A program made the position numbers and the translations under genes. Below the pieces are notes generated by a model. The model worked only from the letters and a program-made list of their open reading frames with translations, did not search any database and was not told where the DNA came from. From the NCBI GenBank assembly GCA_030141605.1, contig JAQGDQ010000006.1, positions 1,185,501-1,249,500 of the forward strand: DNA of 64,000 bases, read 5' to 3'. Origin of the DNA: Tubiluchus corallicola (lineage: Eukaryota; Priapulida; Priapulimorpha; Priapulimorphida; Tubiluchidae). Position 1 is the stretch's first letter. Each line of letters starts with the position of its first letter. Below, one piece after another: positions 12,601-64,000 of this stretch.

Positions 12601-15600
12601 TTTTTTATAAAGCTTTTGTACATGTTTTTATTCAAGTTATTGAATATGGCACGCATAGCAAAGTAAACTTTCATACAATGAAGGCTACTACCCAACATGC
12701 TATGATTAGCATGATTTATGATTTGCTTTCTATGATTAGTCAGGAGAGTGAAATGAATAGTTTATAACTTTTAATTTTTTTACAGATTTAGTTACTTCTA
12801 GTTGGGTGAAGTATATATAAATATATAAAGTTGTGGTTGCCTTCTAGCAGAAATAAATTTGGTCTGTGTCTTGGATTTTTTGTTCATAATTTGGACTGTA
12901 GTCTGCATTTTGCTAGTTCAGCAAAAATGGTATGACTGTGTTGCAGTTGCCAAAGGAAAGCAGTTTAAAAAACAAAGAAAGCTCCATTCAGTACTTTCAA
13001 ATTCAATCTTTTGTTTAAACTTAGTAGACCACAATTAGTTGATAGTTTATTCCACTGATGCAGTAGACTGATTTCCAAGTAAGTATCACGTAATGGTATG
13101 TGGTAATATATTACCTACTGACATGTGTCTAGTAACTCACTTATCGGATTTACATACAGTGTAAGTTACAAGATTTATAAATTTGCATTATCATATATAA
13201 GCTATATTAAAATTATTACATGTGTTATTTACAGTTTGAAGATGTGGTGGTTCTAGCAGCAATAAAGTTACTGGATGTTTCTAAATTGAATGATGCAGCT
13301 AGAGGTGATCCTATTAAAGTTGTAAGGACAATCACTGCAATGGTATGGTGCTTTATTAATGTTGTAATTAGAATTTCATGATTTTACACAGCAATAGTTA
13401 TTGTTTTTCTGTCCATTGTTTGGGTGGGTATCTGTGGCTATTACGCCCTTGGCTCTCCTGTTATAAGGCTCTTTCTTTTATTTTCTCACTTGTTGTTAGA
13501 CATTTGCATATGTTTATGTTATTTCATATTTACCAGGTGCAAAATTTTGGGAAAACTTAGCATTCCATACTAGACCCAATTATTGAGAACTGTGTAGCAT
13601 TAGTTTTTTTCAGTGAGGTGACCAATTTCATTTGTTTTATGTAAAAGAAATTCCCGCACATTTCAATACCGCCATATCCATTATTTATGTAAGCTTTGTA
13701 GGCCACATTTCTTAAAAGAAAAGCATAAATTTGAGAGGTTATTTGGCTCTTTTTGTTTTCCCGTGTCTTTTTTCCAATGTGATTATTCATATTGTGCCAA
13801 GTTAAGCTATTTGAAATACACTAGTGTAATCTGTATGTTACTGAAAATTCAGTACTTTACAGCTAATGTCTTGATTGCATTTAATTTCTCTCACCTGAGC
13901 ATATTATTTTGTAGTTATTTGTTTTTATTCAGTTGTTTTTATTGACATAGGTTAATTCAGAAGATGATGGAGGTGTTTTGCAAGGTAATTGGACAGGCGA
14001 ATATGATGATGGTGTTCCACCAAGTAACTGGCAAGGTTCTGTCGAAATTCTACAACAGTGGTACGAAACAGGAAATGTTGTTAGATACGGCCAGTGCTGG
14101 GTTTTTAGCGGTGTGGCTACAACAGGTAACTATCACTTTGCAGATTTATGAACTTGTGTACTTATTAATTGTTACTTAACAGTTTCTTGGAAAATTTGAC
14201 ATTTTTATTGGAGCACATTGAATGTAAAATTGGTAAATTTGTTTTTTTTTTACATTTTAAATATCAACTTGAATCATTATTATAATAATTTTAGTGATGA
14301 GGGCACTTGGTATACCTGCTCGTTCAGTTACTAATTACTCATCAGCACATGACACAAACAGCAACATCACCATAGATGTTCATTATGATGATGAATATTC
14401 AATGATTGATGAACTAAATGACGATTCAATCTGGTAAGATCGCTTGTTCTAGTCATTATATAATACTTAGCCTTAACATGCTTGTTTGCTTGATTCATGC
14501 TAAGAAAATACTTTTTCATTATATTTTCTACTGCATTTGATATAAATGTTTAGCCGTGCATCATTTGAAAAAAGATTTTGAAAACTATTGTTGTTACTCA
14601 TACACATGTATGACTACATGTACAATTATTTTTATGGTAACAAATTGTAATTGCCATCAGTTGAGTATACTTGCAGAAGATGGCGCTAGGATCTGACTTT
14701 AAAATTTCCGTAGTGCGTGTACATTGGCATTAATTGTCAATTTGTGCTTCACTCTGCACTGACGTTTTGAGAGGGATGGCATGCACTCACATGTCAGGGT
14801 CTCTTAAACAGGTGTTATTAATAAATTTTAATTGCGTTCAGTGAAGTTCCTTCAATTTGTAATAAATGTTTTGTTCTTTATTCTGTGAGTTCTGCATTAT
14901 TTTGCAGTCCCAAACTTTTACCACCAGCGAGTCAACATACTGCAAAACAGTTAAAAAATTTGAAAATATTATTTGCTCTGGGTATTGGTATTGATCATCA
15001 AACTATCATTTTTAAGGTTTTACTGTTTCAAGTGGGTCTGTATAAGTGCACAATAGGCCTGTAATGATTACTGTAATGCTATAAAAGCAAAGGTTATTTC
15101 ATACATTTACTGAGTTGGTACGGCAATGTTTTTATAGGAATTTCCATGTATGGAATGAGTGTTGGATGACAAGACCTGATCTTCCTGCTGGTTATGGAGG
15201 TTGGCAAGTAGTTGATGCAACACCACAGGAAACGAGTGAAGGTTTGATACGCTCATCTTCAAGGCACCTATGGTCCCAAACTTTGAGGGACTCCAGATTT
15301 TTAGGGTCTAGTGTTAAAAAAATTTTATTATGATTATTCTCAAAAAATGCATTTCTTTTCATGTTTCATTTGTGCCACATAATTTTGAGTAATGTAATGC
15401 CTATAGACCAGCCAGCAAGTTTTTCTTTCTTTACTTTTCTTGGAGGTTGTCAAAGTTTTGGAGCAGTAAATGCAATCACTCTCCAGATTACACTGAGAGT
15501 ACAAGCTGTTGTAACACGCCACAAACAGTTACTGAGTCAGCCGAGTCAAGCAAATACTGATTTTGCTTTTATAAATGAAAGATAACATACAAGTTCAGTT

Positions 15601-24924: not shown

Positions 24925-29644
<4,720 letters not shown>

Positions 29645-31440
29645 TTTTATCCACGTAACTACTACCAAGATACAGAAAATCTTTTTTGTTAAATTACCTA
29701 GCTATTGTTTAGTCGAGTTAGTATACTATACGTGATTTTAAAACAAGAATCTAAGCATTAGTTTAGTTTTTATAGGGCTCGGCAGTCATTTTATTGTGAA
29801 GTGCATACATTTATAAAGCAGTGCGCATGGGCTGTCGCGCGATACTAGTCACGTACGTAATTTTTTGCTCTGTTATTATTGTTAATAATTCCGGATTTTA
29901 TCAAAATATTGTTTCAACGCAACAGACGACAATAGTACGCTGTTAGTGGTAATCTAGTTTTTTTTAAATGAGGTGGCACTAAGGTTTAGGGTGGACAATG
30001 AAGGGTGTCTGGTATGCAGTACTGTGTGAATTTGAGAGTGACATCTGGACAGAGTAGGGGCTTCGCGAAGCACTGTACTCTCCTCGCGTGGTCCTAACGC
30101 AAGCAGCAAGAGTGCTATAAACTGTCAACTCATTTCCTGCTTTTTAAAGGTTAATCTTAGGCCTAAATGATAACAAACAACTTAGTATTTTAACTCTTTT
30201 TTTCACAGATTTTGACTTAATTTTCTAAATTAGTTCTAGGCTAAGCATATATCAAGTATAGTTACTTCAATAATTTCTTTCTAATGAATTTTGAGTATAG
30301 TTTGCACTTTCTGAAAGCATTAGCTTTTCCATTTTTGAAGTTAGGCCTATTTGCACTTTTTAAATCATTGCGGAATGGCTAGAGGTGTGTGCATATTAAA
30401 TGTAGTTAAGCAGTGCTGAGCCTAGTCAGTAAATGAATAATTGTCAAAAAGCTGCTGTTGTTGTGAAATTGTATCTACCATATTGTGTTAACTTCTTACC
30501 CCATTGAAGGATCTATAAATATGGCTCTTGATTAGAATTTGATGCAGGAACATAGCTTTGTTGATTACTACATTAAATTTCAGAAGGCTTGATTGCTCAA
30601 TAATTCATGGTGTAATGCTATGTTAACAGCTTAGTCACTGGAGTAACGTAAAACGGACTAAGCGAAATATATAATAACTTACACGAAATTAGAAATTTCT
30701 GCGCTTAAACTAACCTGTTGTCATTTTTTTCTTTTTTACAACCTGCTAAACAATAGTGACTCGTTAATAACAGCTCTTACTGTCAGCTTTTTTCTAGAGA
30801 CGTCTTTAGACCACTGTGTGTTACTACTGAACTGGGTTCCAAGCAGCATGTAGGCTTCAAAAGTATCAGAGATCCTATTCATCACCCAAGCGGAGATGCG
30901 AATTTTTATTACAGTTTCCGAAGGCATTTTTATGTGCAAATTCAGACTGATTTTGAAGAATGTAAGACCTTGATGATGTACCATATGTTGTAAATAAGTA
31001 AGTTTGCAAAATACTTTAAAACGTACTTGAAAAGCATTAGCTGTACTTTGCTAACTCGCATATTCCCATATTCCTGCATCATAATAATGTAACCTACCTC
31101 CGTATCAAGTATCAAGGTCACACTGTTCGCGTGTTATATAGCTGTCAAGAATTTTTAAATAAAAAGTACTACACGATTTTTTGTCAAAATCTAATGTGCA
31201 GGTGCTTCAGTGAAAGTTCATTGGTTATAATTAACAGCTTAATACCAAGATCTCTTATCCAAAATAAGGAGGGAAGAAGAAAAGAAGCCGAACCTCGAAC
31301 CCTGGTCAGGTTCATCGATGACTTGTGTGATGTAAAAGACTGTGTTGTCTTTACAAGTCTTCTTTTAATATTATATTGCATCAGTTTTACACTGTCTTCT
31401 ACCTCTTTGTAATAAAAAACACAGGCCTAATAAACTTTCA

Positions 31441-34944: not shown

Positions 34945-35165
34945 AAAGCCTCTCATTTGCACACCACTTTGAATTGTGGTTTTAGTGGTGGCAGCTAATA
35001 TAAGCTCTAGACACAAAGTCAAAATTAAAACAAAAAAAGGAGAAGTACATAAGCCTCATGGTACATACACCATTTTGAATTCTGGTTTTGAATTTTTACA
35101 AGATAGAGGTATAGCAAAACAGAACATACGCATCAATTAATAACTATGTTCAGCTGAAACACTGC

Positions 35166-35965
35166 TTAAAATTCTTCTTTATTTATATAAGAATGCATAA
35201 GAGGTGGTAAACTCAGTGATCGCGGCTTGCGAAACAGCTTGGAGAACATATACGATGCTTCTCGATTAGATGCATTCCACGATCTAGGCTCTGTCTCTGA
35301 AACTTTTGTATCACCGCCTTCGTGTATGCATTTACGGAATGAAATGTTTCGTGCACCACTAAATACAGATGAAGGAGAGAAAATATCAGAACAATCTACA
35401 GAAGAAAAACTTGACTGCTTATCAAGAGTTGAGAATGGAGAGTCTGGTGGGAGAGCTTCGCTATCAGTTTTGTTGTAAACTTGTTTTGAAGTAGTCCTGC
35501 CCACAGAACATGTGTCCCTAAACGCAAAAATCTTCATAATAAATTTCCTTGTACTTTGACTGGATGCAGAACATTCAATTATGATAAAGCAGTGCAAATA
35601 TAGGTGCCTCAAAATTATTATGGCGAAAAGTACTGATGCTATGCATCTTACAAAAACTACTTGATGGCACACAAGTTACAAATAGTTGAATCTATACGTG
35701 TAACAAGAATTAACCAATAAATTCATTACATGTCTTCTGTCATTTATAAAGAAATTTCTTGAAATGCAAAAAGTAAAAGCACATAAATTCAAACAATACC
35801 TGGTTGTATGTATCGGTAATGTTGTTAGCATATTGTGGATTGCTTTGTATTTTGCAGAACTTGCTTCCTGCTCCTGTACACAACATAAAAACTTTTGTTG
35901 AATCTAAATGCTAATCGCTGTTTTATAATAAAACTTTTTGTGCGCGCGAGAGAGAGATCAAGAGC

Positions 35966-35999
<34 letters not shown>

Positions 36000-36731
36000 T
36001 TTGATTTTGATTTACTTCTTTATTTCAAACTTTCGTTCATATATATACAACAAAAATACAAGTAAATAAACGACACAAAGCACACAATGTAAACACAACA
36101 CAAAACAACATTACAAAAATAATAATAATAATAACATTTCGCATTGCTTCATTCATTATATCAATGAAAATGTAAAAATTAAGCATAGAATTTCATTCTC
36201 CAAATCTTTCTTATACTGGAAGTAAATAAAGTATCACTAGCGAATATCGTTCTACACAACAAGTTTTTACTGTTTGAAATTCTAGTATCCAGACTGTAAA
36301 TGCTTTTCCTGTAAATAACATCAAAGTACACTAATTTATGCATCACAGAAATGTCCCTGGCACTGTGATCGAACTGATAATTGATAAATTTTCGCATTGA
36401 TTTATTATGAGCAACCTTAAGTTTGTTCAGATTATATTATGAAAATGCTGCCAGGTGGCTATACAGTAGAAGCTATTACAATAAGTATTGAATAGACGTG
36501 GTTTTACAGCATTGGTGCAATAGTAAAATTTACGGCATAGCTTATTTGCTCGAGAGTAATAAATGCCTACTTGTCGTATGATATCTAGATCGTCTCTGTT
36601 GTCCCTAGAAATGATGTGACCAAGATATTTTTCATTATCACAAGGCTCAATAACAGATCCAGCTAATTTAACTGTTCCGAACTCAAAGTTGCTCATAATG
36701 GAAGACATTATAGTCAGAAGAAAAACTAGTC

Positions 36732-36818
<87 letters not shown>

Positions 36819-39800
36819 AGTAGTTATTTAATTTTTATTTTTTCCTCATTCTTATATTTTAAGCCACTTCACAGAGCATTCCAGATCTCTGTCCATGACA
36901 CAGAGAGGAGAGATTCCCTAATAAAAAGAGAAATTTTCATTAGTAAGCAAGACTTACAATCGGCGTTATTTCTGATGATGCAGAAGCTGTCCTGTGTTGA
37001 TGCAATTCGGGATGTAGAAGCTCTACACATCTGTAACATTCCTCATTATAATGGAATGTGTCACCGTCAGATTTAGTATCAGGGACTGAATGACGTGTTG
37101 AATGCAGATTAATACCAAGAAATTTAGCAATGCTCCCCTTTATCTGATTGTATGACTTTGTTACATCACCTGTTGTACAAAAAGCTATACAGTAGCTGCC
37201 TGTTAATTATATGAATGAATGGCTCACACATGTAAAACTCTTCAAAAAGTATAGCAAATTCGATCAATGAACTAATACACATACAAAATAAATCAAACAA
37301 TCAATCAAACAAATAAATAAAATAAGCAATATATACGAAATAAATCAAACAATATATAAACCAGTTGTATATAAAAAAAAATCAAACAATCAATCAAACA
37401 AATAAATAAAATAAGCAATATATACGAAATAAATCAAACACTATATAACCCAGTTGTGTTTTTGTATTATCACTAGCATTCAACAAATGACTGAATAAAT
37501 GGTGATAATAACAATAAAAGAGTAGCTTTATTCATACTTGTATCTATGACACTTTGAAAAACTCCAGTCTCTCCGCGGTTCAGATATTCTACCCTCTCCA
37601 TAAAAGTGTTCCATTGAGCTTCGGGGGTTAGAAAATCTGAGGCTTTTAAAATTGCTTTGTGTGTATTTGCATCTAAAGGCATTGCAAGAATGCAGTGAGG
37701 TTGATAATGGGTTTTTTGTAAACTTAGAACTCCCTGCAGAAACATTATATACAAAATTACAAATATGCATCACTAGAAGTGGTTGTTTGAAAAAATATAT
37801 TGAATAAAAACATTTATTACACCAAAGCTAGTTTTACCAGTACCTCCAACCAGTTTCACACATATTTGATATATAAATTGATAAACTGACTGGTTTTGGA
37901 ATGCATACAGAATTGTTCTATAAACTCATTCATGAGCCACTGTCATGTTTAAGGAGGTTTACAAGGGAAAAATCCATGCAATAATATGAATTCAAACCTC
38001 GCAGCTGCATGTTCCAGACCTTTCATGAATCATCATCATAAACTTTCAGCTTTTTGTAATTACAGTTATAATTGTTCCACATGCAAGTGTAATGGCTTCC
38101 AAGTAATACCTGGTAATACATTTACATAGACATCTGCCAATGCTGCAGTAATTACCAAATAATTAGATTAATTTTGTATGCAAGTCAGAACATGTCACCA
38201 ACTATTTTAGACACTGATTTTGTGCCGTAAAATTCTGTCTGCAATACTACTTTATATGAAAGCCATCAGTTTTGTGCATGTACAATATACTTCAGAGTTT
38301 GAGGGCCACTGTGACTTACTATTCACCCTGCGTCCTTCTTAACTTTTTATCTGACACATCACAAAACTGTGAAGCAACAGACATCTTAGGAGAACCAGCT
38401 GCTTGCAGTTTTTGACTGTCTGGCAAGAAGTTTTGTATAGGAAATCTAATAATGTTCTCACGGTATACACTTTGCTGCGCTCACCGTATCACATACTGAT
38501 GGAAATACAATTCTCATTTAAATACTCTCTTTCTGATTTATGGCTGAGGTGATAAATACATACCAGTAATGGCATGGCAGTAATGCAGGCTTTATGTTCA
38601 ATCGCTGAATGTTCGATAGAATCAAGTGAGAGACCATAATCGAAACCCAATTCAGTGTAAGTACAAGCAAACAGTCCCTGGAAGAAATATAACAACACAA
38701 TTGTTGCAAAAAGTAGAACATTATAACAAATTACTAAACTTGTGTAGGTGTTATCATCTTAAAACGCCAAGTGTGTAGACGAAGATATGTATCATAACAG
38801 ATGACAGTGCCTAGAAACACTTTTCTCAGCAGCTGATCATCCATGTTTGAACAGGCTCAGCAAGGATATTACATTTTAATTGTAAACCTGAATTACACTT
38901 GCAGCCCACTGGTAATAATGGACTCAATTGTAAAATCAGTTAGACAGCTAAAGGCAGCAAAGCAGAAATATATCACTTGCAAACGAAAAAATAAATTCCT
39001 TACCGACTGGAGTAATGAATCAAAAACAGCATTTGTGACGTGAACTGCATGAACATAGTTATTATTGTCAGGCTCTGGACGGGTGGTGTGTAGTACACTA
39101 TGAGGAAAATATAGGAAATACATAGTTAAAATATTGTCTGTCTTATCAACAAAGCAGTCTCATAGGTAAAATCACTAATAATTTCGCATTTTCTAATACA
39201 GCTCAAGTACGTCTTTTCATACAAAACTCATACATGATGCTGACTCTTAAAATATCGACCACCACTATAAATGCCCTCCAAGAATTAAATGAAAATAAAA
39301 GAGCAATATATGTGTTAACAAAAAATACAGAGTAAATAGTTTAATAAACCAGTTCAAGATAGAGAGCTGTAAAGTTAACATACCCAACAGAAACATAGTC
39401 GCGCAAATCTCGTGAAAGGTTGTATAAGAAAACATCTCGTTGGGAGCTTGCAGGACTCACAATTACTATGACAGGATGAGGTGTGTGGATAGATGTAGTA
39501 GTGCTGCAAAAAACAGTTTCTGTAAGCCAACTTATACCTGTATGAATTCAGATCCAAATCCACTAGTATGACCATGTTTGTTACTTGACTATGCCATTAA
39601 ATACAATCTCAGCTTTTCAATCAAACTATTGTCTGAATCCTAACCTCAGATGTCTACCCAACAAGTTTTGAGATTCTACACACTATAGTTTTCAAGATAT
39701 TCAATACTGTGACTCAAAGTAACTAATGTCCTGTGTCCTTGACCCAAGGACATTGTTTACGACATCGCTATAACTTCTTGCAAGTCTAGCCTCTGCATTT

Positions 39801-42800
39801 ATGAATTAATATGAATCAAAAAAGTGGATGCATAAGAAAACTCGATGGCTAACATAAAAAATAAAAATCAGAGTAAGAGTTCTCTTAGATCCACAGTGCT
39901 CATGGATAACAAAGAAGAGTAAAGCATCAAACAACATTTCATAAAATGTTTTGCATTAGTATAAAGAACTAACCTACAACACCAGTCTACAATTCCAATA
40001 AACAAAACCAAAAATTTTACGAATTGCTTGTAAAAACATCATTACAGGTACATCAGCTTCCTTTTCCGCCACTAAGAAGTTTAGTAGATGTTAATACCAG
40101 TTTTGCAAACAGTGCCAATAATAGTATATTATATACATAACGTTTTGACAAAAAGTACTTAACTATTAAAAGAAGTCATCAAAGTCTGAAGCATGTTTCA
40201 ATTTTACCACTCTGAACACCACTTTTAATTACTAATTTGAGAAGCTCGGGATATCAGAAAAGCTGAATAGTAATGTTTAAATAATTTCCAAACAACATCA
40301 ACAGTCTGAAAATTATTCTTCAATAAGCTTCTTATAAAAAAGTAGAGTAATTTGTTTTACTAAGCCAGTGAATTCTGCACTACTAATAGTTTATATGGAC
40401 ATCTTTTTTTTAAAAAAATACTATAAGCAAACTTGCTTTAGTTTTTTAACAAATGACCAAAAGCATTACATACTTAAAACAGCTGCATATAGCAGGCCAG
40501 TACAGGAATTTGAAGTATCAAGTTTTACATATAACTACCCTCAAAACATGAACTCTGCATGAAGTGAGATGCATGTGTTGCTGCAGAGCACTTCAATTAG
40601 TTAAATGATCAGATTCAAGTACGGTATAATAACATTACAGCGAATGTGCTAGGAACCCAGAAAAAAGTACTCTATAACCGGGGCACTCAGTTAGCATAAG
40701 CAGCTAATCATATGACGGGCACGTATAAATAATAAAATTGTATAAATAATGTGCAATGAAAAAACGTGTCGCTTCATAGAGGAAGTGAAGTACTTGCACA
40801 AGATGCTAACAAGTAGCAATGTTTTTTATGTGTCTTCAATAAATGAATGAATGAAATTGATGAATGAAAAATCAATGAACATTTCAGATTAGATTGCATG
40901 TACGTGTAATCTATGGTACATGTTCAGTTGTAAATTTGTTCAGTAAAGTCCAACTCAGTTTGAAATGTTCAGTAAAGTCAAAGAGTCAGGTGACTGCAGT
41001 AAGATTCGTCACTTGATGAGACATCTTGGGAGTGCACTGCCAGTGTCTGAACAAAAAAAAGCTGGGTGCCAAGCTGCTGAGTGATTCATTGTTGTTATAT
41101 AGGTAGAAAAGAAAATGATTTTTCGACAAAACATGTTAACAACTCCGCATGCTGCATACCCAACAACTTTTTGCAGGACCAGGAATGACAGGTTACATTT
41201 AACTGTAAATTAATTTGCAGCTGGCAAATGTAAAGTATGTAATAAAAACTTATAAATATATAGTAATATACAGGCAATGGGGTCTGACAAAAAGTCTGTA
41301 ATACATAATAATCAAGTACGCTGTATTCAAAGCTATTATAGTAGTTAAATGCATTTTGGTGGAAAGTTTGTTCTTTTTTTGCGAGTTCACATTAGCGGTG
41401 TTTACACAATAAACCACATTTGCCATAATGCTGTTATACTGCAGTAGCTTATACTTTTCTTGATTAAATGAAAACAGGTTGATTCTTCATATCCTACCCC
41501 ATTTTGAAGTATGGTTAGAAGTATACATTTTAATAACTATAATAATGCGAAAGCATTTCTGATAATTAAATAATAGGTTAAAAATTTAATCAACAGCGGT
41601 TAAGCCCAAGTGATGGCATCCCAAATCAACAAAATTTTCAACACTACAAACATTCCATGAGCATGTTGGACGTGTTTGCAAATGTGCTACTGTACCACAT
41701 TCAGCGTGATGTACAAAAACTCCGCAAATTTTAAGTTCACTGTCATGTTCACACACGAGTTCCAAAACATGTATACTATGTCCGCTCTACACCTCTGAAA
41801 TGAGACGTACCAGCATCTCTTTTTTATGGTATGCATTTCCAAGATGCAGGCGCTAGTGCCCATCTAACTAGCAAATGGCGAAATGCATGTAACAACAATG
41901 AACTAGCCACATGAACGAGAAATTATGTTTCAGCGATAATAATTCTTTCACAGAGGTCATTGCAGAAGAAACAGCATGTTCCTTTTAAATATCTTATAGA
42001 GTAGATTTTTTTGAGCTATAGTTTAAGACTGGGTTTGGCTTCCCTTTAACAAGATTTTAAAGCTGCACTAAATGCTCACTATAATTATGAATTCTTAAAA
42101 CTTTTGAAATTTTGCAGAAAGTTTGCTAATAGCAAACACTGGAAGAGCAGTTACTGGGAAGCAATGTTTATTACCTTTTGCGCAACGTTTGATTTTGCAG
42201 CCCAGAAAATAGTACATGTGTCATGTGATCAGTTGCAGCAGTAATCTCCAAAGGTGGATCATACATGTTAACTGCTAACACCTGAAATTTGCATAGAGAA
42301 AGATGTCTTTATTCTTTTTACCACAAATGAATTCCTACATAAAACACCGTCATTGCAACAGAACAATTATATTTAATAGATGCAGTATCAAGGTAACAGA
42401 GAGCAATTGAACAGATATGTCCTCTTTATTAATTACGCATAATAACACAAATAATAGCACCACTTCTACTGGCTATTTTCACAATAACAAGCAGGTCACA
42501 AACCAGCCATGGCAATCTTTGAGCTAAGTATGGATTGTTTATGTCAATTAGGTTGAGAATACATGAAATACATAAAGTCAGCAAAATAGAAAGTACCTTT
42601 TCCTCTACTGTACACCTTTCTTTATCTAATATTGATAGGTGGGGTATTTCAAAAATAACAGACAGTCTATAGTCCTCCACTTCTTGAATAGGATTTCTGT
42701 CGAGATTCAACACACGCAGGAGTGATAGCTCTCGTATAGCCACTATGTCATCTAAGTTTTCTATCTGGAACAGCAAACAAGATAGTGACATATAAATAAT

Positions 42801-45800
42801 GTTATAAAAATGAGATATAGATGAATTATTGTACTCCTTCAAGTAATAATCCTCTACTGACTGCAGTCAATTGCCTGCCAATAATTTTTTATTTATTGCT
42901 TGCTGAAGCCTGATGCTGATAGCAGTCAGTAAAATTATTTCTAAAATAGAGTACTTCTACAATTCTGAACAATTAAAAACCAATTCAAGATTTTGTCTAA
43001 CCGTACCTGATTATTTTCCACTAGAACAGTCTCCAGGGTCGAGCAGTACTCAAGGCCTTGCAAGGTTTTAATTTGGTTGTCCGATAAGTTAATTTCCTAT
43101 GAAAAACAAATTGTTATTAACAAACTCACAATGGCTTACTTTACAAGTACATGCTGTATTAGTGTATCTATATAAGTATTTACTTTATTTTGATATATAT
43201 ATATATATCAATTTCTCGCTGCATTTGCATTTATTGGTGCTATTACTGCATAATGAGTTTCCACTGTAACACTAAACCCATATATTTATTTTAAAGAGAT
43301 ATTCAGCAGGCAACTGACTACCCCATAAACGTCTGAAGATACTTTACACAACTGCATGACATTTGGATTATGATAAAGGACATGGCCATTTAGACACTGG
43401 GACACTTTGACAAGAGACATTTGGGTACCAATAAAATTTAATGTTATACCTCATTTTTTATTTTTCTTTATTAAATTTTTAATTATTTACTATAATTTCC
43501 TAATTCTCAAAACACTTTTTTAAGAATGATGACTTCGCTAAATTAAACATAGGCAGTAATACATGATATAATAAAGGCAGTCAATAGACTTTGCACTTTC
43601 TTGTTTTTAATCTTAATTCAGTATTTTATGTGTAGCCTTAAAAAAGAATGAAGCAGAAGACACTGCAAATTTGCAATAGCATTTTAATAAAATATGACAG
43701 CATTCCATTTCAAAAATATCTAGTGCATCATAAAAACAACAGTAAGTCATAGAAATAACAAAAACAATCTATGCACTTCAAAATTTAGCCTTAGTACAAC
43801 TAGTGCTGCAATTTCACTGGTATTATTTCACAGTACTATATTCATTAAACTGTTGGTGTGCTTTAGAAGAAATTGACATAGAATGTGTTATTTAGTTCAT
43901 TAATTACTTATAACTAACTAGATCAATTAGTAGCCAAATAAATTTTTGTATGCTTAATAATTTTTAATATTAATTTTAATATTAAGATTAACCATAATTC
44001 TAAGCATTTTTGCTATATTTCTTGTCAAATGCACAATAATACTATGTGTCAACAACAATGTTTCTACAAGCGTTAACTGAATTATACTATTTGCCTTTTT
44101 CTAGTTTTAAAGGAGTTCCAGATCACAGTCACCTACTTTTTTTCTTACAAAAACTTCAGCAGTTTTAAAATTTACATCAAGTAGTGGATGAGGATTTTCA
44201 CAATAATTTTAGCACAAAACAAACTGACATAATGTAGTGTTGCATTATTTACCCAAGTTAGCCGCAATTTGAGCACAGGCGTTGGTGCCAAAATGTCTCA
44301 CGCGCAAGTGTCTGGCACTCAAACGGTGTGCCCAAATGTCTTGTTCCCATCGATAAAGGAGCACCTTACACAAAATATGGATGACCCCTCATCAACAACA
44401 TACTGTCATATTTCACAGAAATTAAATTTTAAGCAAGACTGTATCAGATAACAAGAGAGACTAACGTACCCGCAGTGACTGTAGTCTGCACAGATTTTCA
44501 ATCACTGTGATTTTATTGTGTTGCAAGTCCAATATCCTGAGAAAATGCAACTCTGATGGAAGCCCTTTTATCTTCTCAATATTATTGAAAGCCAGACAAA
44601 TTTCACTTAAGTACTGACATTCTGATATACCAGTAATTTTATTAATGCTGTTATGTGTCCAATTTAGGAAAACAATAAAATGCATGCAAAAAGTGTTATC
44701 TGAAAAAAGACTGTGCATTGAGCAAAAATCCCTGTTGTGATTAAATTAAACAATAAAAACGAAAAAGGATATTGTTCAGGTTAAGCTTTTGAAGGTATTT
44801 ATGCTTGGAAAGATCATCAATGTGTGTAATATTGTTGAACGAGAAATCCATGTCCAAAAGCGAAATTGGATTGATGTCTGGTATAGACTTTAAACAGTTG
44901 TGGGATGCATTAATTACCAAAAGGTCCCTCATGGAATTCAATGCTGAAAGATCTAGAGCAGAAATGAAAATACAAAAGTATAATTATGTATATTTTAAGT
45001 GCACAGTAGCCATACATCAGAAAATTCCCAACTGTTAGATCACAGTTAGCATTCATGTGAACTATCAGCCACATACAAACATTAGACAAAGTTACTAGAA
45101 AGCAGCTATTCTACCATTAAGAAACGCCGACTTTTATCAGTTTCTTTCATTGCCAATTATCTACCATAATCCACAGTGCCATAAGGCAGCGTAAACACAA
45201 AATGGACAATAACTGGACAAAAAAATTTTCATCCTGTGTTTTGGGGGTACAGTTAATCAGTATTGCAGAGGTAGCCTCAACACAACTACCCATCAAACGA
45301 TCTGAAAAAACTGCACTCAAGAAGGTACGTTTTTCAATACAGGATGTCCGACTGATTTAAAAAGTCTTATATATATATAATATATATATATATTATCAAG
45401 CATCCTTTATTCAGCTAAAGTACACAAATTCAATAAAGTACTGAAATAGTGAAACCAAAATGGAATTAAACAAAACCTGATAAGTAATTTCCAGAAACGT
45501 CGACTCTCTGCAGAACACGGTACTTGGATAGCAATGTGATGTCTCGAAGATTCAAATCCTACAAAAAAACTAATAATACAATAAACACAAGATTTTAAAA
45601 TACAAAATTCAACCAAATAATGGAAATGTGAAAGTTTAGACAGACCTTTAAACCAGAAACATGTAAATTACAAATTCAATAGCATTCGTGAACACTAAAC
45701 AATTGACACAGCCCCTTGTGATTAATGCATAGCTCAGCAACAAACACACTAATTTGTAATGTCTGCTTATTCACTTAGAATATAATTACCACCATGTAGA

Positions 45801-46223
45801 TTTAGAATCCAATGTGGATAGGTATATCTAAATCTGCAATAATTAGCCAATTAATTATATTAATATTTTACATCATTTACTTAAAGTCTAAGTCAAGTAT
45901 ACATCATTTACTTAAAGTCTAGTTTAAGTCAAGAGCAATTTATAAATTTAGTTGTAACCTCAATTCAAATTTATTAATTATCGCATCCATAATTACAAAA
46001 TTTTGGAAACCAAACCAATTATTTTATTATAACAATATTGTACAAAACAAATTTATACCTGTGCCGAAAAGTTGAGATATGTAAATTGAAAACCATTTGC
46101 ACTCGGTCCAAGATGACTGAGACCATCATTAATATGTTCACGTGTGAGTCTACACCCCATGCTTAAGTCAGTGTCAGAAGATGCCATATGATCATCATAT
46201 TTTGTTTCAAGAACCACACTCAT
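35166..46223 (-). CDS. LRGUK: Leucine-rich repeat and guanylate kinase domain protein
   Basis: Fourteen exons (minus strand): 46223-46059, 45558-45477, 44952-44773, 44654-44470, 43096-43007, 42764-42597, 42281-42175, 39503-39384, 39097-39004, 38677-38564, 37733-37538, 37169-36958, 35873-35800, 35517-35166. All phases agree, giving 712 residues. The order matches LRGUK: an N-terminal segment (GLSHLGPSANG), seven or so leucine-rich repeats (DVSGNYLSDL, DLQHNKITVIENL, EINLSDNQIKTLQGLEYC), the LRR cap (VLNLDRNPIQEVEDY), then a guanylate-kinase-like domain (HPVIVIVSPASSQRD, LHTTRPEPDNNN, FDYGLSLDSIE, HCILAMPLDA) and a serine-rich tail. In mammals LRGUK acts at the sperm manchette and basal body. 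Here the Walker A Gly and Lys are absent. One LRR intron is AT-AC. Exons 13 and 14 are less certain; exon 14 could start at other nearby AGs of the same phase. A LINE begins 22 bases upstream of the ATG, so a non-coding 5' exon is likely. Confidence 0.9.
35947..35999. repeat. (GA)n microsatellite, left half
   Basis: Interrupted GA run directly left of the LINE fragment at 36001-36733, in LRGUK intron 13. It has the same strand composition as the run at 36735-36812. Confidence 0.9.
36001..36733 (-). mobile_element. Non-LTR retrotransposon 3' fragment
   Basis: On the minus strand the frame from 36708 reads CDNEKYLGHIISRDNRDD, IRQVGIYYSRANKLCRKF and VKPRLFNTYC, the C-terminal RT/thumb region of a LINE. 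After a frameshift near 36420 it continues with MRKFINYQFDHSARDISVM and SSIRKIWRMKFYA. The 5' part is missing. It is bounded on both sides by GA microsatellite inside LRGUK intron 13. Confidence 0.82.
36735..36812. repeat. (GA)n microsatellite, right half
   Basis: Nearly pure GA run of about 78 bases directly right of the LINE fragment. Confidence 0.95.
37290..37455. repeat. ~89-bp tandem duplication
   Basis: The block starting ATCAAACAATCAATCAAAC at 37292 recurs almost unchanged at 37381, including AAGCAATATATACGAAAT and the CAGTTGT ending. It lies in LRGUK intron 11, just downstream (gene sense) of exon 11. Confidence 0.85.
44655..44772 (-). other. U12-type AT-AC intron in LRGUK
   Basis: In gene sense the intron starts ATATCCTTTTT, the consensus 5' splice site of minor-spliceosome AT-AC introns. 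It ends TTTTCCTAAATTGGACAC, with a branch-point-like TTCCTAAAT (consensus TTCCTTRAY) about 8 bases before the terminal AC. Splicing here joins LQKLNLN, a split Asn codon and NSINKITGIS, restoring an LxxLxLxxNxI repeat in register. No GT-AG alternative near the exon end keeps frame and spacing. Length is 118 bases. Confidence 0.8.
45869..45930. repeat. 31-bp direct repeat
   Basis: ACATCATTTACTTAAAGTCT at 45870 recurs at 45901, followed in both copies by AAGTCAAG. It lies in LRGUK intron 1. Confidence 0.8.
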
Positions 46224-46244
46224 TTTGTTAAACTATAACCCAGA

Positions 46245-48127
46245 AAAAAATCAAATCAAATCAAATCAATTTATTTCACTCCAGCAATACATATATAATA
46301 ATAATAGTAGTAGTAGTAGTAAATCTCCAGTAGTTATAATATAACTTTTGAGACAAATAGTTCTTCGACTGTCATTGCGACAAATTGCACATACAATAGA
46401 TTGTCATCAACACCTAGGTGACTCCACTGGCAAGTTTTCTCACTATAATATGTAATCCAGCATCCTTGTTATAGGCATGTTCCAATTAGCACGGTGATTA
46501 AATTTCAATGGATGATGTTCATAGTGTCTATCTAATTTTGATTTAAATAAATTTACAGATGTTGCTGTTCTCACATCACAGGGCAATCTATTCTAGATTT
46601 CTGGCATCGTACAAGAAAAATAGTCGTATTTACCAGTTTTGAGCGTAGTTCTTGATTTATGAAGAATAGGACCTGATCTTGCTGTGCGATGTACTTGTAA
46701 TTTAACAGGACAATCATCACAGCTGTAAACTCCAGATACATATTTGTATACATCAATTAGTTGGCCACGTAAACGTCTAAAAGCTAATGTAGTTTAACCT
46801 TTTTGTTTTAACTGACTTTCATACGTCAAGTTCATTAGTTCCGGTAACATATTGAAAGCTCTCATTTGGACAGTTTCGACTGGGTCCACTATATATGCTC
46901 TAGGACTATTCCAAATACTACTTCCATACTCCACTTTTGATCGCACAAATGCCACATATAGAAGCTTGAAAGTTTGCAGATCTAGGTATTTGAAATTCCT
47001 CCTTATTAAAGCATTGTTTCATTTGGCATTCTTTATGATTTCTGCTATGTGATCTTTAAAATTTAGTTTATTATCAAGTAATAATCCAAGGTCTTTCTCA
47101 CAAGCACTAAAGTCCAATTCTGCCGGAATGCCACTTGCATATACATTTTGTATTTATACTCATATCCTGCTCCCACAGATACAACCTTACACTTGTTGGG
47201 ATGGAACTGCATACCATTTTCAACTGTCCAATCACAGAGCCCTTCTAGATCCAATTGAAGATCATTACAGCTGGTAAAAGAATCAGATTCAGACCAGATT
47301 TTGCTGTCGTCAGCAAAAAGACGAAGAGAATTTCTCACACAACTAGGCAAGTCATTTATAAATACCACAAATAAACACGGACCTAATACCGAACCTTGCG
47401 GTACACCACTAGTAATCAAGGACTCAGTCGATTTGTAACCATCAACACACGTACATTGACTTCTATTTTCTAAGAAGTCTACTATCCACTGTAAAACTGA
47501 ACCAGTTATACCACAATTTTTAAGTTTTGCAAACAGAAAGTGATGAGGTACAACATCAAATGCCTTTTTCAGGTCCAGTAATATTATATCAAAAGGCTTT
47601 TTGGCATCTTTTAACTCAAACCATGCATCGTAACATTGTAACAGTTGGGTAACCGTTGTTCTACCCTTAACAAACCCATGTTGTTATTCACAAATAATGT
47701 TGTATCTTATCAGATGGTTCATTATATGCTTCCGCATGATTTTTTCTGTCACCTTATTAATTGTATTTAGTAAGCTAACTGGCCTGTAGTTCGATGGATC
47801 TGACTTGTCCCCTTTTTTATGAATGGGAGTGACCTGTGCCACCTTCCATTGTCCAGGTAACTGACAATCAGCAAAAGACCTATCCAGTAAGGTGTATATA
47901 GGCTTAAAAAGCACAGTTCTACATTCATTTAAAATACGTGAATGGTAACTATCTGGAGCAGATTTGTTTACATTGAGATTTTGTAACTCAAAAAGCACCT
48001 CTTCTTCAGTTATGAAAACATTGTTGATATCAGGATTTGTTGCACTGTAGTTACTTCATAGTCAGAAGCGTTGGGACTGAATACACTAATGAAAAAATCG
48101 TTCAAAATTTGTGCCTTCCCCTCTATA
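46245..48127 (-). mobile_element. Non-LTR retrotransposon, 5'-truncated and decayed
   Basis: Gene-sense order from 48127: KAQILNDFFISVFS; then VNKSAPDSYHSRIL, GQWKVAQVTPIHKKGDKSD and NYRPVSLLNTINKVTEKI (RT fingers); HGFVKGRTT; KKAFDVVPHH; then SGVPQGSVLGPCLF and LRLFADDSKIW (RT palm with FADD); and thumb/C-terminal segments such as SKVEYGSSIWN. A stop near 47690 and several frameshifts make it non-functional. The 3' end carries a TTTGATTTGATTTG tail (46252-46275). It resembles Jockey/CR1-group elements; the exact clade is unresolved. It sits immediately upstream of the LRGUK start codon, in the same transcriptional direction. Confidence 0.88.
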
Positions 48128-49020
48128 TTTAAATAAATAAGTATAGGTAAAAAAACATAGATGAAGTCAAATTAACGTAATAAAAGTTGCTCTATGACAC
48201 CAACAAAAACAATAAATATCAAAATATTGTAATTTGCAAATAAGCCTACTGGAATAATTTTTTTAAGAAAAGTTCTAGTTTTAACTGGAGTTTTTCAAGA
48301 ACCTTCTCTACTTCAATTATGTAGGCAATCAATCTAACACAGAAGAGCTAGGAAGATCTAATGCACGACACAAAACATGTGTTGCAGCCACCAGGGCAAT
48401 GGAAGCGCTTTTCAGAGGTTGTCACACGTTGGGGTAATATGGACTTTGGATCAAATTTTGAACTTGCTCTCTTACAAATATTTGTACAGTTTGTCAATAA
48501 AATGTTAAACTTAAAGTACATCCTAAGTTGCAAAAGAAAATTTTTTTAGTTTTACTTGTTAGAGAGACACTAAGTTACACAATTCTTGAATTAGTACTAT
48601 TACTGTATTTTTGAGTTAGATTTTCTCAATACACTTTAAAAAGCATTGTTATTTAGACAAAGGTCATCCATTGATGTAATCCAAAAACTAGTCAGAAATT
48701 TCCACTTCGTCGTCTTGAAGATTTCATCATCTGATATTGATTATTGTATCTTCGGATTACACGGTACCATAGTAATATTAAGATCTACTACTATTATATA
48801 AATCTACGGTTACGTAATAAACTATTAAAAAGGTGTATTATTTAGTGAAGAAGCCATCTTAGCTTACTTTATTCAAATCACAGTGTAATCTTTCATTTCT
48901 TTTTCCTTAGCACCGCGGCACAGCAATCAAAAGTTTAATTTCGCAGTTGCCACAGCAACCACACCTAGCTTTGCTCACAAGAAAAAGCAAGGTTTCTTCT
49001 CTTTCTCTAAACTTATGGTT
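48128..49020. other. Repeat-poor spacer, probable LRGUK promoter zone
   Basis: No coding frame was recognised. This is the first non-repetitive sequence upstream of LRGUK beyond the LINE, so the LRGUK transcription start and a non-coding first exon may lie here. It contains an X-box at 48946-48959. Confidence 0.4.
48946..48959. promoter_or_regulatory. RFX-binding X-box
   Basis: GTTGCCACAGCAAC fits the X-box consensus GTNRCC-N(0-3)-RGYAAC exactly and differs at two central positions from the palindromic ideal GTTGCCATGGCAAC. RFX factors use such boxes in promoters of ciliary genes. It lies about 2.7 kb upstream of the LRGUK ATG and 2.9 kb upstream of the N6AMT1 ATG. LRGUK is the more likely target given its flagellar role. 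Confidence 0.6.
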
Positions 49021-51750: not shown

Positions 51751-51877
51751 TAAATTTGATATAAGGCTGTGTTTCTAGCTGAACATTAGATTGACAAAAG
51801 TCTGACATTGTTTTCAGTGTTTATGCACTAAAGAATGTTTGTTTGTCAGGCAGACCACACAAATGTTTTGCATTGCT

Positions 51878-54800
51878 ATGTTGCCAACTCCAAGGTTTTC
51901 ACATCTGTCTCATTTGGATTATGAGCATGTGTATGAGCCAGCTGAAGATACTTTTCTACTCATAGATGCCTTGGAAAAAGATGCTTCCACAATCAGAAAT
52001 CAAAGGTAAAATGAGATGTGTAAAAAATTATTTGTACTTTTTGGCAGTGCTGGGTGGTAAGAAATCATAAGTTTCTAGCACCATGTCACTGTTTCAAAAG
52101 CAGATAATGTAACGTTTGCCACAACCCAATAACATAACTTTGTAATCACTTTCATTATTTAATTTTGTCGAATGCAGTCACTCGAAAAGCATGGGTTTAC
52201 ATAAGTTTAAAGTATGGCTTGAATAGAACTATCTAGAATAACCAGTTCTAAATGAGTCATTCTACAGTAAAAAGTGTTCAGCATTGTTAAAACAGTATAA
52301 TTATATAACTGCCTCTTCTAATAATGTTCAACATTAACAAATTTTAATACTCATTACTCTTTAATGGTTACTGTGTTTCTATTTAAGTTGATATGATAAT
52401 TTTGTATTTCACTAAAGCTTTAGTGCTCGCCGATTTAAATACTGAAATAGTGCTCACTGTTTCAGAGAGCAAGGAAAACAGGATCATTTTTAAATAACTG
52501 GTCAAATGGCAGTCAATTTTGCCTTATGGTACAAAATATCTATATTACTAAACCTTTTATATAGCAAAAAAAAATCGATAGGGTTTTTCATACATTAAAT
52601 ATTAGATCTATTAAAAATTTGGTTTAAGCGTTAGATTTCCAATCTTACTGGAAATCGCTGACACAACTTTTCATTGCCACTTTTTGCAGTGAATTCATGA
52701 CACCTGCCGCTTATTGAATTACACATTGATTTGCCACATTGATCAGTTGATAGAAAGGTAGAACAAAAACTGGTCAGTTGAAAGTTCATTTCACTGATAA
52801 TACAGATAATGGAATCTGTTTTGTCAGTTTTACTAGCATTATCTTATTTGTAACTGTACTTTAATTTACAAAAATTACTTATATTTACTTGATGTTTATT
52901 TTGTAGGCCTCATCTGTGTGTTGAAATTGGTAGTGGTTCTGGATTGGTGATCACATTCTTAGCTTTACTGTTAGAAAGGAAAGCCTATTTTATGTAAGAA
53001 TGAAGTCTCTTGAGTTTGTATGTAAGAGTAATAAAATTCTATATTGGTGTTTATTTGTGGCTACATTGTAGAAGACCAGAAAATTTTTGTTTAATGTGTT
53101 GCAAGTATTGTACAAATTTTTCATTTTTTTTTACTTGCCAATGATTGCTTGTATAAATAGCAAAACATTAAAAAAGAAGTACAGTTTAACACCATTATAG
53201 CAAACATGGTTTGTTGGATACACACCAGTAATTCGAACTCACAAAAAAAGAACAAACTTTCGATATTTATTTAACTAGTCTAATAGCTTTGAATGCAGCG
53301 TACTTGGCTATTGAGTATTGAGGATTTTTTGTTGGGCCCTTGTTTGAGGAGTTTTTATTGCATACCTTTGCCAGCCTTTTGCAAATTAATTTAGAGTTAA
53401 ATTAACCCGTTTTCTTTCTGCTCCAACAAGTTGTTGGGATGCATCATGCGGTGTTACTACATGTCCTGTTGAAAGGTTATTTTGTCTGCTAGCTGTATAA
53501 CAACAATAAGAAACTCGGTGGCTTGTCAGCGAGCTGGTTTACGTATTCACACTGGCAGTTCATTCCTAAGATGTTTCATCAAGTGATGAACCCTATTGCA
53601 AAAACTCTTTATACAAGGGGCAAGCAAAAATTTTGTGCAGACAAAATTGACTATCCTTTTTAATTCTCATTGACTTTACTGAACACATCACGTAAATTTA
53701 CAACAGACTGTGTACACTCAGTTTTATATGAAACATTAATTAATTTTGGTTTATTGAGGTTATATAAAATTCTTTTCACTGAATTTGAATGTAGTGCAAG
53801 GTAGGTGATAACATCTTCTAAAAGTACTTCACATCCTCTATGAAGGCACACATTGAACGTTGTTTATACAATTTTATTAATTGCTTGTCCTTCTAGTAGT
53901 CATCTACATATTATTTGTCTTATTCTATTTCTGTTATATGCTTATGGAGTCCCTAGCAGGTTCGCTATAACGATGTTATACTACGATTTAAATTTGCTTA
54001 ACCTACAGTTGCAGATTTAGTAACTTCTGTAAATTACTACACCCAGGCTGCAACTTACAATTTTTGTCAAACATAGTGTCACTTTTTGTGATATCACTGC
54101 AGAACTGTCAGTTAAGATATTGGATACTGGAGCATATTGGCTAGCTTTTAAAGCTTGGTAGCTGCTAAACTTGCATTGCCTAATCTTGTATTCTTACTTT
54201 GGCATCTTGTAAAAGTGTTTTTCATCTAGCTGCATTCAGTTTCATTGCTACCTTATATATACCTGAACAGTTAGCAGGCTTGTGTGCCTATCTTTTCACT
54301 TATTAAATGTCACTGTTTTCAGAACTGTTCCTTCTGAATGCTTACAAATAGCTGCCAATACTATATTGACAAGCATTATTTTATGTTTAAAACTGACTTG
54401 CATGTAACCCTATTTATGACTGTAATAGTTTGAATTTGTAATTGCAGTTTTAAAATTACCTTTTTCAGATGTACCGATATTAATGAAAAGGCTTCTAAAG
54501 TGAGCTTGCTGACAGGAGCCGAAAATGGGATTCATTTAGAGCCTGTTGTGACTGACTTGGTAACTGATATATCAATTTTTTTATCTAGGTTGAATATAAG
54601 TTAAAAACAATCAGTTTAAACTTTTTGTTGAATGTTTGTGGTTACTTTTTTGGCATTTATCAGTATACATCAAAAGTTTGGGGGTAAATACTGTACTGAG
54701 TTAATTTAAGAAGTCATCAGATTAATTCAATTCAGTGAATTAATTTTATTTTTCTCCACAAAATACAACAATTTCTGTAAATTTATAATAAAAAATTATG

Positions 54801-57800: not shown

Positions 57801-58661
57801 TTTTTTTTAAAATATTGTTTAAATAATTTTATGGTTTGAATATGTATCTTCGAAGAAACAGTTACATGATGTATGCTTGAAGTACATATTGACAGTAAAG
57901 AGTTATTTAGTTGTTTGAATGTGCAGGTTGGAAGTAAAGACATCTCAGCAGCTTGGGCAGGTGGTGTTAATGGCAGAGAAGTGATTGACAGACTTCTTCC
58001 CAAAGTGGCAAAACTTTTGTCACCATCGGGGATTTTCTACTTGTTGATTAGTAAAGAAAACAACAAACGTATGTGCAAAACTTAAATTTCAGCTTGCATA
58101 ATTTGCTACAGTAGAATGCACTTTTAGAATACTGTCAAGTTGTACTATCCTTCTCCAAAATAATGTTGTGCTTTTTATCTTTCTTTTCCAAGAGAAGAGA
58201 GCTGCGTTTCTATAAATGCTACAAGTGCAGCATTTTGCTGGATTGTAGCATAAAATTTCTGTAAACATTGACCAATGTTTATTTAATAAAGAGTGTCAAA
58301 GACTTTTTATAAGCTTGGTTTCACAATGATTACTCACCCCAAAAAGGTATTTATCAGGGTATTGGCAATGAGAAAGGTTTAGTTTCAAAAAAGAGTGTAC
58401 TAAAAATGGAAAATCCCCAAAAAGGCCCCCCTTATTGCATCATATTTTAAGCAAAGTTTTACAGAAGTGATCAGCCAAAGTTATTGTGTTGCTGAAGAGA
58501 CTTTAAATTATAGCCTGTAAAGTACCTTATTTTGTATTTGTATGCTTTCAGAAGAAATATTTAATATGCTGAAAGAACAAGGATTACAAGTGACAACGTT
58601 CTTGTCGCGGAGGAGTAGTTGTGAACATCTTTCTGTACTGAAAGTCACTCTTTCAAAATGA
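51878..58661 (+). CDS. N6AMT1: Methyltransferase N6AMT1 (HemK2/KMT9-alpha), complete
   Basis: Six exons: 51878-52005, 52907-52993, 54469-54559, 56596-56679, 57927-58068, 58552-58661. All phases agree and give 213 residues, essentially the family length. Key motifs are [16 protein letters not shown] (residues 19-34), the S-adenosylmethionine loop VEIGSGSG (about 48-55), CTDIN, the catalytic NPPY (120-123), [18 protein letters not shown] and the C-terminal LSVLKV. The family forms a heterodimer with TRMT112 and methylates the Gln of the GGQ motif of release factor eRF1; histone H4K12 methylation is also reported. It acts in cytosol and nucleus. Start: the first ATG in frame, [20 protein letters not shown], agrees with the family. 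An AATAAA lies 37 bases after the stop. Intron 3 contains a hAT element. Confidence 0.96.
55434..56012. mobile_element. hAT-type non-autonomous transposon with 8-bp TSD
   Basis: The element 55442-56004 starts CAGTGGCGTCGTGCC and ends (inverted) CAGGGGCATCGTGCACC. Both ends carry a C/G-rich run followed by AATTTTTT. It is flanked by perfect copies of TCAGGATC (55434-55441 and 56005-56012), the 8-bp duplication expected of hAT elements, whose termini often begin CAGTGGCG. No transposase frame was found. It lies in N6AMT1 intron 3. Confidence 0.88.
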
Positions 58662-61410: not shown

Positions 61411-63528
61411 TTATGAAAAGGTGATACCGCCTCCTGAATATTCCAGCCTCTGTAAAAAAATAATATTTTTTACTAGTGTGGTTTGCACAAGTAATGCGAC
61501 AAACATACAGACAACTGTTCTGAAATAATAGCCTCCAAGTTAATGAAGTTTGCAATACTTTCCTTGGTGTGCACCAAGATTCCAGTGTATTCACAGATTT
61601 TGGATGCACAATTTCAACAGGTGAGTGGCAATCAGAAGGCTCATAAACAAACATTTTTGAAATTTTAAAACAGAATTATCTGCCCTGGAAATAACCAGCT
61701 TTTTTTCTTGAAAATGTATAATTTATTTCCCCCGACCCCACCTCGTATACTTATCAATATGTGTTACCAGGTAAAATCACAAGGAAATTCACCTTTTATT
61801 GAATGGATATAACTAAAACATGCGCACTAACTATACAACATAGTAATATAAAATGCACCTGCTGTGGTTGAACAAAAGCTAACCAGTCCGATGTATGTGT
61901 AGGTAATAACCCCATAGACTGACATTTATATAAGGCAAGCGCTATTCCTGCTAAATTTCCTATAAGATATACGAATCGTTGAATCGGAGCTTGACTGCCC
62001 TCTATTGTTTGAAAAGCTGAAAAAATTCATGGATATTATGTCCACAGATCAGCCTTCAGTTGATTTGTCGCACAGCTATGCAAAATGTAATATTACACAA
62101 ACATGTCTTTCTGGCACATAAACAGTAAAATTAATTTTGTATAACATGTAATAAACAAAAATTGCATTGTTAATTTTTATTCATCACTATGAAACTCAAG
62201 CGACCTTTTGTTCCATTGTATCATACAATGCACATTATTTGCATATTGGGCAGACACAATTCACAAAATTCAGTCAAATTAAATAAAGGCTGAGAATTTG
62301 TATGTGGAAACCATAGTCAGCTGGGAAGAAGAAACTTTAATGCCATAGTTTCTGTAAGTCTGAAAGATAATATATGACCATTTTTGTTGTAACTACAAAA
62401 TGGTTACCTAATTTGACTAATCTTAGTACAACTGTGCTCAGCTTGTGTGAGTCACACTTTGCTGCAAAACGAAGTTAGTAAGGGGTATGTTTAGTTATAA
62501 ATTTACAGCTGGCCTCTATAATTTATTAATCGTATAGAAGGTTAACAGTAGATCAGAAATTGTATAATGTTGCTGTTCTTTACACAATTTCCTTAAATGT
62601 TGTTCTTTATTGTAATTCTGACTGAAACCAGCTGCCGGCATTTTGGCTATAAATTGTGAATATCTTTACAGCTGGTTCAATTGTATTCGGAGAATTCAAT
62701 TTCTATTTGGCTTAACTGGATTTATTATGTATTGCTATGAGCCTTGCTTAGCTGCTGAGCATACGTCATCTGTTCACATACACTGTATTGTATGCGGTGT
62801 GTACAGTATAATACAGTAATTTCTAGAAAGACATACGTAATACGTAGAATTATCTGTAAGTTGTAGCAGTCTGTCTGCAATTTTCTGGAACCTTCTCTAA
62901 TTATATAAACAAGATCGCCCACAGAGATAATATAACAGTGCAGATTAAAAGAGTTGTACATGTAAAGTGTTTTTATTGGGTGAATTTTGTAAATTTGATT
63001 TTCACGTGCATATGTTTTATAATTGCTACTGATATACTCGTTATACTTTATATTTATTAATACACGTGTTTATTATTTGTGCATTGTGATAATTATATTA
63101 GTTATTGCTAACTTATTTTGTCATTAATGACATTACTGTTCTCCACAGATATTGCTTTCATACAAATATTTAATAATAATTTCAATGACAGTAAAAATAA
63201 ATAAAAACCATCTTGTATATTGGTTTCATTTGCCAAAAGGGATCTATTTTATTCTCTGTCTCTGTGGTTTAACACATAACAGTACATCAGCTATTATATA
63301 ACACTAATTCATAAACACATGTATCTTAAGTGTAAGGTGTAAGCTTTACAGGCTCAATATACAGAAACACTTACTTGATTGTAAAGAGAACAAGGTTTTG
63401 ATTGGTCTAAATAGCATCATTCCTACCATCATAATAGGAAATATTGAAATGGTGTTTCCAGCCATGTACATAATAAACAGATTCATTGGCAACTGTTTCA
63501 ATGGTCCTAGAGCAATATCCCAAGATTT
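61411..63528 (-). CDS. EMC4: ER membrane protein complex subunit 4 (3' coding exons)
   Basis: Three exons on the minus strand: 63528-63375, 62016-61859, 61449-61411. Phases agree (Thr codon split across the first intron), giving 116 residues of a protein usually near 180. The first holds [33 protein letters not shown] and MLFRPIKTL; the second [18 protein letters not shown] and [13 protein letters not shown]; the third [12 protein letters not shown] and a stop. EMC4 is a membrane subunit of the EMC insertase, which helps put tail-anchored and multipass proteins into the ER membrane. Hydrophobic segments are visible at [19 protein letters not shown] and [15 protein letters not shown]. The 39-base last exon is very small. 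The N-terminal exon or exons lie beyond 63540 or off the right edge. Confidence 0.95.
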
Positions 63529-64000
63529 CTGTAACAAAACAACAAAACACTGTATCTTGCACCACTGAAAATATAACATGCTACAGCATTGTTTTGCACT
63601 AAACCAAGTTCTAACGAATTAACTAGGTGAAAGCTTGAAACTGCATTAAATCCTCACTAAATTAAGCACACTGAAACACAAATTACAGTATTACTGTGAC
63701 CACACTTTTGTTTTTGTAAATTTGCATCTTATATCATCAAAATTTAAAGCAGAAAGCTTCAGCAATAAAATTGTGATAAGTGCTCATGTAATTAGTAAAA
63801 TGAAATTAAACTTCCAAACACTTCAAGCTTGGGCGCACTCATTTTGAACAAAAAATGGCAGCATCCAGTGACCGTGCAATATAAACACTTATCCCATCAG
63901 ATGTTTGAGTGAACTTCTTTTGCAGATACAGTCACAACTACGAGAAATCCAAAATATTAAACGAGAGAGTATTAATACTATTTTTTGTTTTTTGATGAAT
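63529..64000. other. EMC4 5' intron or upstream sequence
   Basis: No match to the conserved EMC4 N-terminus was found on the minus strand here, so the first exon is probably right of the window. Nothing else recognisable. Confidence 0.45.

Follow-up and report, generated by a model that had tools for sequence, protein, structure and literature searches.

The donor and the branch site are the defining signals of U12-type introns (PMC3584512), and they are printed in PMC2831892 as the nearly invariant 5' splice site ATATCCTT and as TCCTTAAC, respectively. The distance from the branch to the 3' splice site has its optimum at 11-13 nt, and splicing may use either of the A residues in the consensus branch site (PMC3584512). 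Minor introns have been reported in ticks, horseshoe crab and fly (PMC10639083) as well as in the honey bee (PMC2831892). According to PMC10639083, they are relatively enriched in arachnids and the horseshoe crab, their loss is extreme in Diptera, springtails and most Acari and less so in Ixodida ticks, two copepods have apparently lost them completely, as have some midges, in which little evidence of them is left, and tardigrades give no evidence of them.

We analysed a 64-kb stretch of DNA, referred to as the window, and describe an interruption of the leucine-rich repeats (LRRs) in an orthologue of LRGUK. On the minus strand, the stretch 44772-44655 has a probability of roughly 95% of being an AT-AC spliceosomal intron of the U12 type.

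The interrupted repeat and its gene

LRGUK is an axoneme or sperm-type gene. The features on which the analysis draws are as follows.

44773..44952, minus strand: exon bordering the AT-AC intron on its 5' side (LSALNSMRDLL...QKLNLN and one base more); open frame, preceded by the acceptor TCTGCTCTAG, aligns to the LRGUK chain of 9ijj
44655..44772, minus strand: AT-AC intron, very probably U12-type, 118 nt, phase 1; sole U12-type donor among nine pattern-keeping joins
44762..44772, minus strand: U12-type 5' splice site ATATCCTTTTT; 8/8 positions of ATATCCTT
44662..44670, minus strand: branch-site candidate TTCCTAAAT; one mismatch (8/9) to TTCCTTRAY, 6/8 to the printed TCCTTAAC
44655..44656, minus strand: in-frame AC acceptor; open frame, register kept
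44648..44651, minus strand: competing acceptors AC (end 44650) and AG (end 44648); out of frame from donor 44772
44470..44654, minus strand: exon bordering the AT-AC intron on its 3' side (NSINKITGI...LCRLQSLR); frame open, ends at the donor CTGCGG|GTACGT
43007..43096, minus strand: LRGUK exon (EINLSDNQIKTLQGLEYCSTLETVLVENNQ); GT-AG flanks
42597..42764, minus strand: LRGUK exon (IENLDDIVAIREL...CTVEEK); GT-AG flanks, Pfam LRR_9 at 24.9 bits (cut-off 30.5)
42175..42281, minus strand: LRGUK exon (VLAVNMYDPPLEITAATDHMTHVLF...); AG before, GT after

The intron begins with ATATCCTTTTTC and ends with TTTTCCTAAATTGGACAC, and if it is left unspliced, a stop is encountered in all three frames. Its excision gives ...KYLQKLNLNNNSINKITGI... 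with the LRR in register, and the joined stretch 44952-44470 without the intron reads LSALNSMRDLLVINASHNCLKSIPDINPISLLDMDFSFNNITHIDDLSKHKYLQKLNLNNNSINKITGISECQYLSEICLAFNNIEKIKGLPSELHFLRILDLQHNKITVIENLCRLQSLR, a series of leucine-rich repeats sharing one register. The codon split by the intron (A|AT) is that of the second asparagine after LNL, with CTGAACA on the upstream exon and ATAACAGC on the downstream one. Minor introns tend to avoid phase 0 (PMC10639083), and the phase 1 position of this intron is in line with that tendency.

We compared the product of five exons, namely the two flanking the intron and the three downstream, with the PDB. The best match was the LRGUK chain of 9ijj (160.7 bits, E 3.5e-46), the next-best match reached 101.5 bits, and the alignment to the LRGUK chain has no gap at the AT-AC junction. 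An earlier note on this DNA had placed a minor-class AT-AC intron within the LRRs of LRGUK and had stated that the join restores a repeat in exact register and phase. The second statement is borne out by the open joined frame and the gap-free LRGUK alignment, while the first is supported by the motifs, the register and the LRGUK match taken together. The name LRGUK depends on the five-exon product, because the two flanking exons alone put LRGUK sixth (60.5 bits), after other LRR proteins.

In the remainder of the gene, the three whole introns (44469-43097, 43006-42765 and 42596-42282) have GT-AG ends, the acceptor ahead of the 44952 exon is AG, the donor past 42175 is GT, and an upstream LRR piece lies near 45558-45478. 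For the guanylate kinase part, a presumed LRGUK fragment used as the query matched locally and weakly, at 37745-37542 (E 8.8e-4) and at 38677-38567 (E 3.1). Pfam gave no match for three pieces of this part, and two minus-strand frames out of three across 35000-48500 likewise had none. With so faint a guanylate kinase part, the LRR block and the VEEKVLAVNMYDPPLEITAATDHMTHV stretch are what the name LRGUK is based on.

These weak guanylate kinase pieces, three of them with no Pfam match, are what a degenerate gene copy might leave, in which case 44772-44655 would be an insertion and not a working intron. However, the five exons that were checked are open and have usable splice sites, and their product matches LRGUK at 160.7 bits, so we regard a degenerate copy as having a practically negligible chance. 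A literature search by titles and abstracts, with supplementary intron lists outside its scope, found no report of a minor intron in LRGUK. In a scan of viral contigs for relatives, the pattern matched 34 times, but none of these matches was confirmed as a relative.

Several other features were observed in the window. Upstream of the visible LRGUK exons, 46794-48055 (minus strand) carries what we take to be a LINE-like element, whose reverse transcriptase was matched by Pfam RVT_1 at about 47824-47177 (E 1.2e-31) and has an in-frame stop separating two of the pieces. Glutathione S-transferase exons lie at 25211-29701 (minus strand), with five of the seven top solved relatives named Delta class, and a long GA/CT microsatellite at 25463-26030 accounts for six long open frames that read SLSL or RERE runs. 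The Delta class is typical of arthropods, and by themselves these exons would suggest an arthropod host. Two EMC4 exons were found at 61796-62026 and 63346-63618 (minus strand; Pfam EMC4, 58.2 and 79.7 bits). The plus strand has a transglutaminase-like exon at 15085-15333 (Pfam Transglut_core, E 0.011, under the cut-off), which probably belongs to a longer plus-strand gene, and two exons at 51806-52009 and 57870-58085 which, we presume, resemble the N6AMT1/HemK2 methyltransferase; the exon at 57870-58085 had no match in Pfam.

Uniqueness of the join and its splice signals

Joins were enumerated with donors from 44800 to 44740 and downstream exon starts from 44725 to 44620, leaving at least 30 nt between them. 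Among the 2032 stop-free joins, the repeat pattern was kept in nine, each of which removes 118 nt. These nine comprise one AT-AC join (44772-44655), one AT-AT join and seven with other ends, and a U12-type donor is present in the AT-AC join only. The AT-AT join (44770-44653) was rejected despite its intact repeat pattern, as its donor ATCCTTTT does not resemble U12 sites. From that donor there is also a second AT-AC join (44770-44650, 121 nt), which is open but lacks one residue; it was rejected for the same reason.

The same enumeration bears on whether the stretch is instead a major-spliceosome intron that uses GT-AG or GC-AG sites, with a merely coincidental AT-AC match. Three GT-AG and two GC-AG joins do keep the frame open, but the repeat pattern is kept in none of the five, and GT-AG or GC-AG ends are absent from the nine pattern-keeping joins among the 2032 stop-free joins tried. 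Scoring against LRGUK covered two of these five, both of them GT-AG joins from donor 44760. They reached 139.0 bits (insertion) and 136.1 bits (deletion), a loss of 22 and 25 bits with part of a repeat inserted or deleted. Such an intron is thus very improbable here.

The donor of the AT-AC intron agrees with ATATCCTT at every one of its eight positions, so the proposal in the earlier note that the 5' end fits the U12 AT-AC consensus was confirmed exactly; the T run of the donor extends to +11. On both strands of the window, ATATCCTT was observed 4 times against 2.86 expected from dinucleotide content, and ATATCCTTTTT once against 0.14 expected. It is the position at an exon end, not the bare 8-mer ATATCCTT, that exceeds chance: there are nine pattern-keeping junctions, and therefore about 2e-4 exact donors are expected at them by chance.

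For scoring the branch site, we used TTCCTTRAY, a form of the U12-type branch site. Strings with at most one mismatch to it number 58 in 128 kb, and requiring one within 8-20 nt of a particular acceptor contributes a factor of about 0.6%. The combined chance of donor and branch site is about 1e-6, a value that assumes independence and uses ranges picked after the site had been seen. At the three further exact ATATCCTT sites in the window (plus strand 26383, plus strand 33386 and minus strand 38869), no coding exon end was recognised. The first of them opens a second AT-AC-like triplet (26383-26432, plus strand, 50 nt), which consists of an exact donor, a branch string with at most one mismatch and an AC end, has no evident coding context and is likely due to chance.

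In the LRGUK intron, the preferred branch A lies 8 nt from the last intron base, or 9-10 nt if an earlier A of the run is used, distances that fall below the 11-13 nt optimum. The branch point described in the earlier note as near-consensus stands as such with respect to TTCCTTRAY (8/9); its agreement with TCCTTAAC is lower (6/8), it lies 8 nt from the AC, and better-spaced acceptors, out of frame, adjoin.

Alternatively, excision of the AT-AC intron could fall to the major (U2) spliceosome, for which such introns are known: AT-AC ends also occur outside the U12 type (PMC3584512). U12-type introns have no distinct polypyrimidine tract, and the 3' end here is fairly T-rich, with pyrimidines at 10 of the 17 positions from -20 to -4 (four other acceptors of the gene have 11-14 of 17, one of them offset by one base). 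However, with a donor that reproduces the U12 8-mer exactly and a near-consensus branch site, we see very little chance that U2-type excision applies.

Proposed splicing and the tandem acceptors

Going by what the literature reports on these motifs, the LRGUK AT-AC intron would be a substrate of the minor spliceosome. In the proposed mechanism, U11 would pair with ATATCCTTTTT and U12 with TTTTCCTAAAT, after which U6atac would replace U11 at the donor. The minor spliceosome would then join ...CTGAACA to ATAACAGC..., restoring the asparagine codon (A|AT) in the middle of an LRR. On the same footing, we infer that the host keeps a working minor spliceosome, which the earlier note had presented as shown by the intron. 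Within the 64-kb window, there were no Rfam matches at the gathering score.

The 3' end of the intron presents three acceptors in close succession. Measured from the branch A, the second AC lies at 13 nt and the AG at 15 nt. Of the AC acceptors tried with donor 44772, no other than that at 44655 gives an open frame. Using the AC at 44650 or the AG at 44648 with this donor breaks the frame: counted from the split codon, codons 2 and 3 downstream are stops in the join to 44650, and codon 13 is a stop in the join to 44648. According to PMC3584512, the choice of the 3' site by U12-type splicing is error-prone and AT-AG terminal pairs seem to be disfavoured.

If the 11-13 nt spacing rule is valid in the host, some misspliced LRGUK RNA is predicted. 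The best-spaced site of this AC/AC/AG series (8, 13 and 15 nt) does not keep the frame, and minor splicing here may even routinely yield some premature-stop LRGUK transcripts, either as noise or as dosage control, although we consider this improbable. Spaced as they are, the three acceptors make the intron a modest natural experiment on 3' end choice by the minor spliceosome.

Comparison with known minor introns

The LRGUK intron adds one more well-supported minor intron, in this case in an invertebrate LRGUK, and serves as a sequence-level pointer to a minor spliceosome kept in the host lineage. Minor introns have already been published for several arthropods, and therefore this case changes no general view. 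Given the enrichment and the losses that the PMC10639083 survey reports, retention in the host lineage would be informative about that lineage and not surprising.

The LRGUK intron shares its AT and AC ends with U2-type AT-AC introns, but differs from them in that its donor is the extended U12 motif. It resembles the animal U12-type AT-AC introns, as described in PMC10639083, PMC3584512 and PMC2831892, in its ATATCCTT donor, its TTCCTTRAY-like branch site, its AC end and its position away from phase 0. Unlike those introns, it has a short distance from the branch to the AC (8-10 nt) and a tandem series of acceptors (AC, AC and AG) with a single in-frame site, the first.
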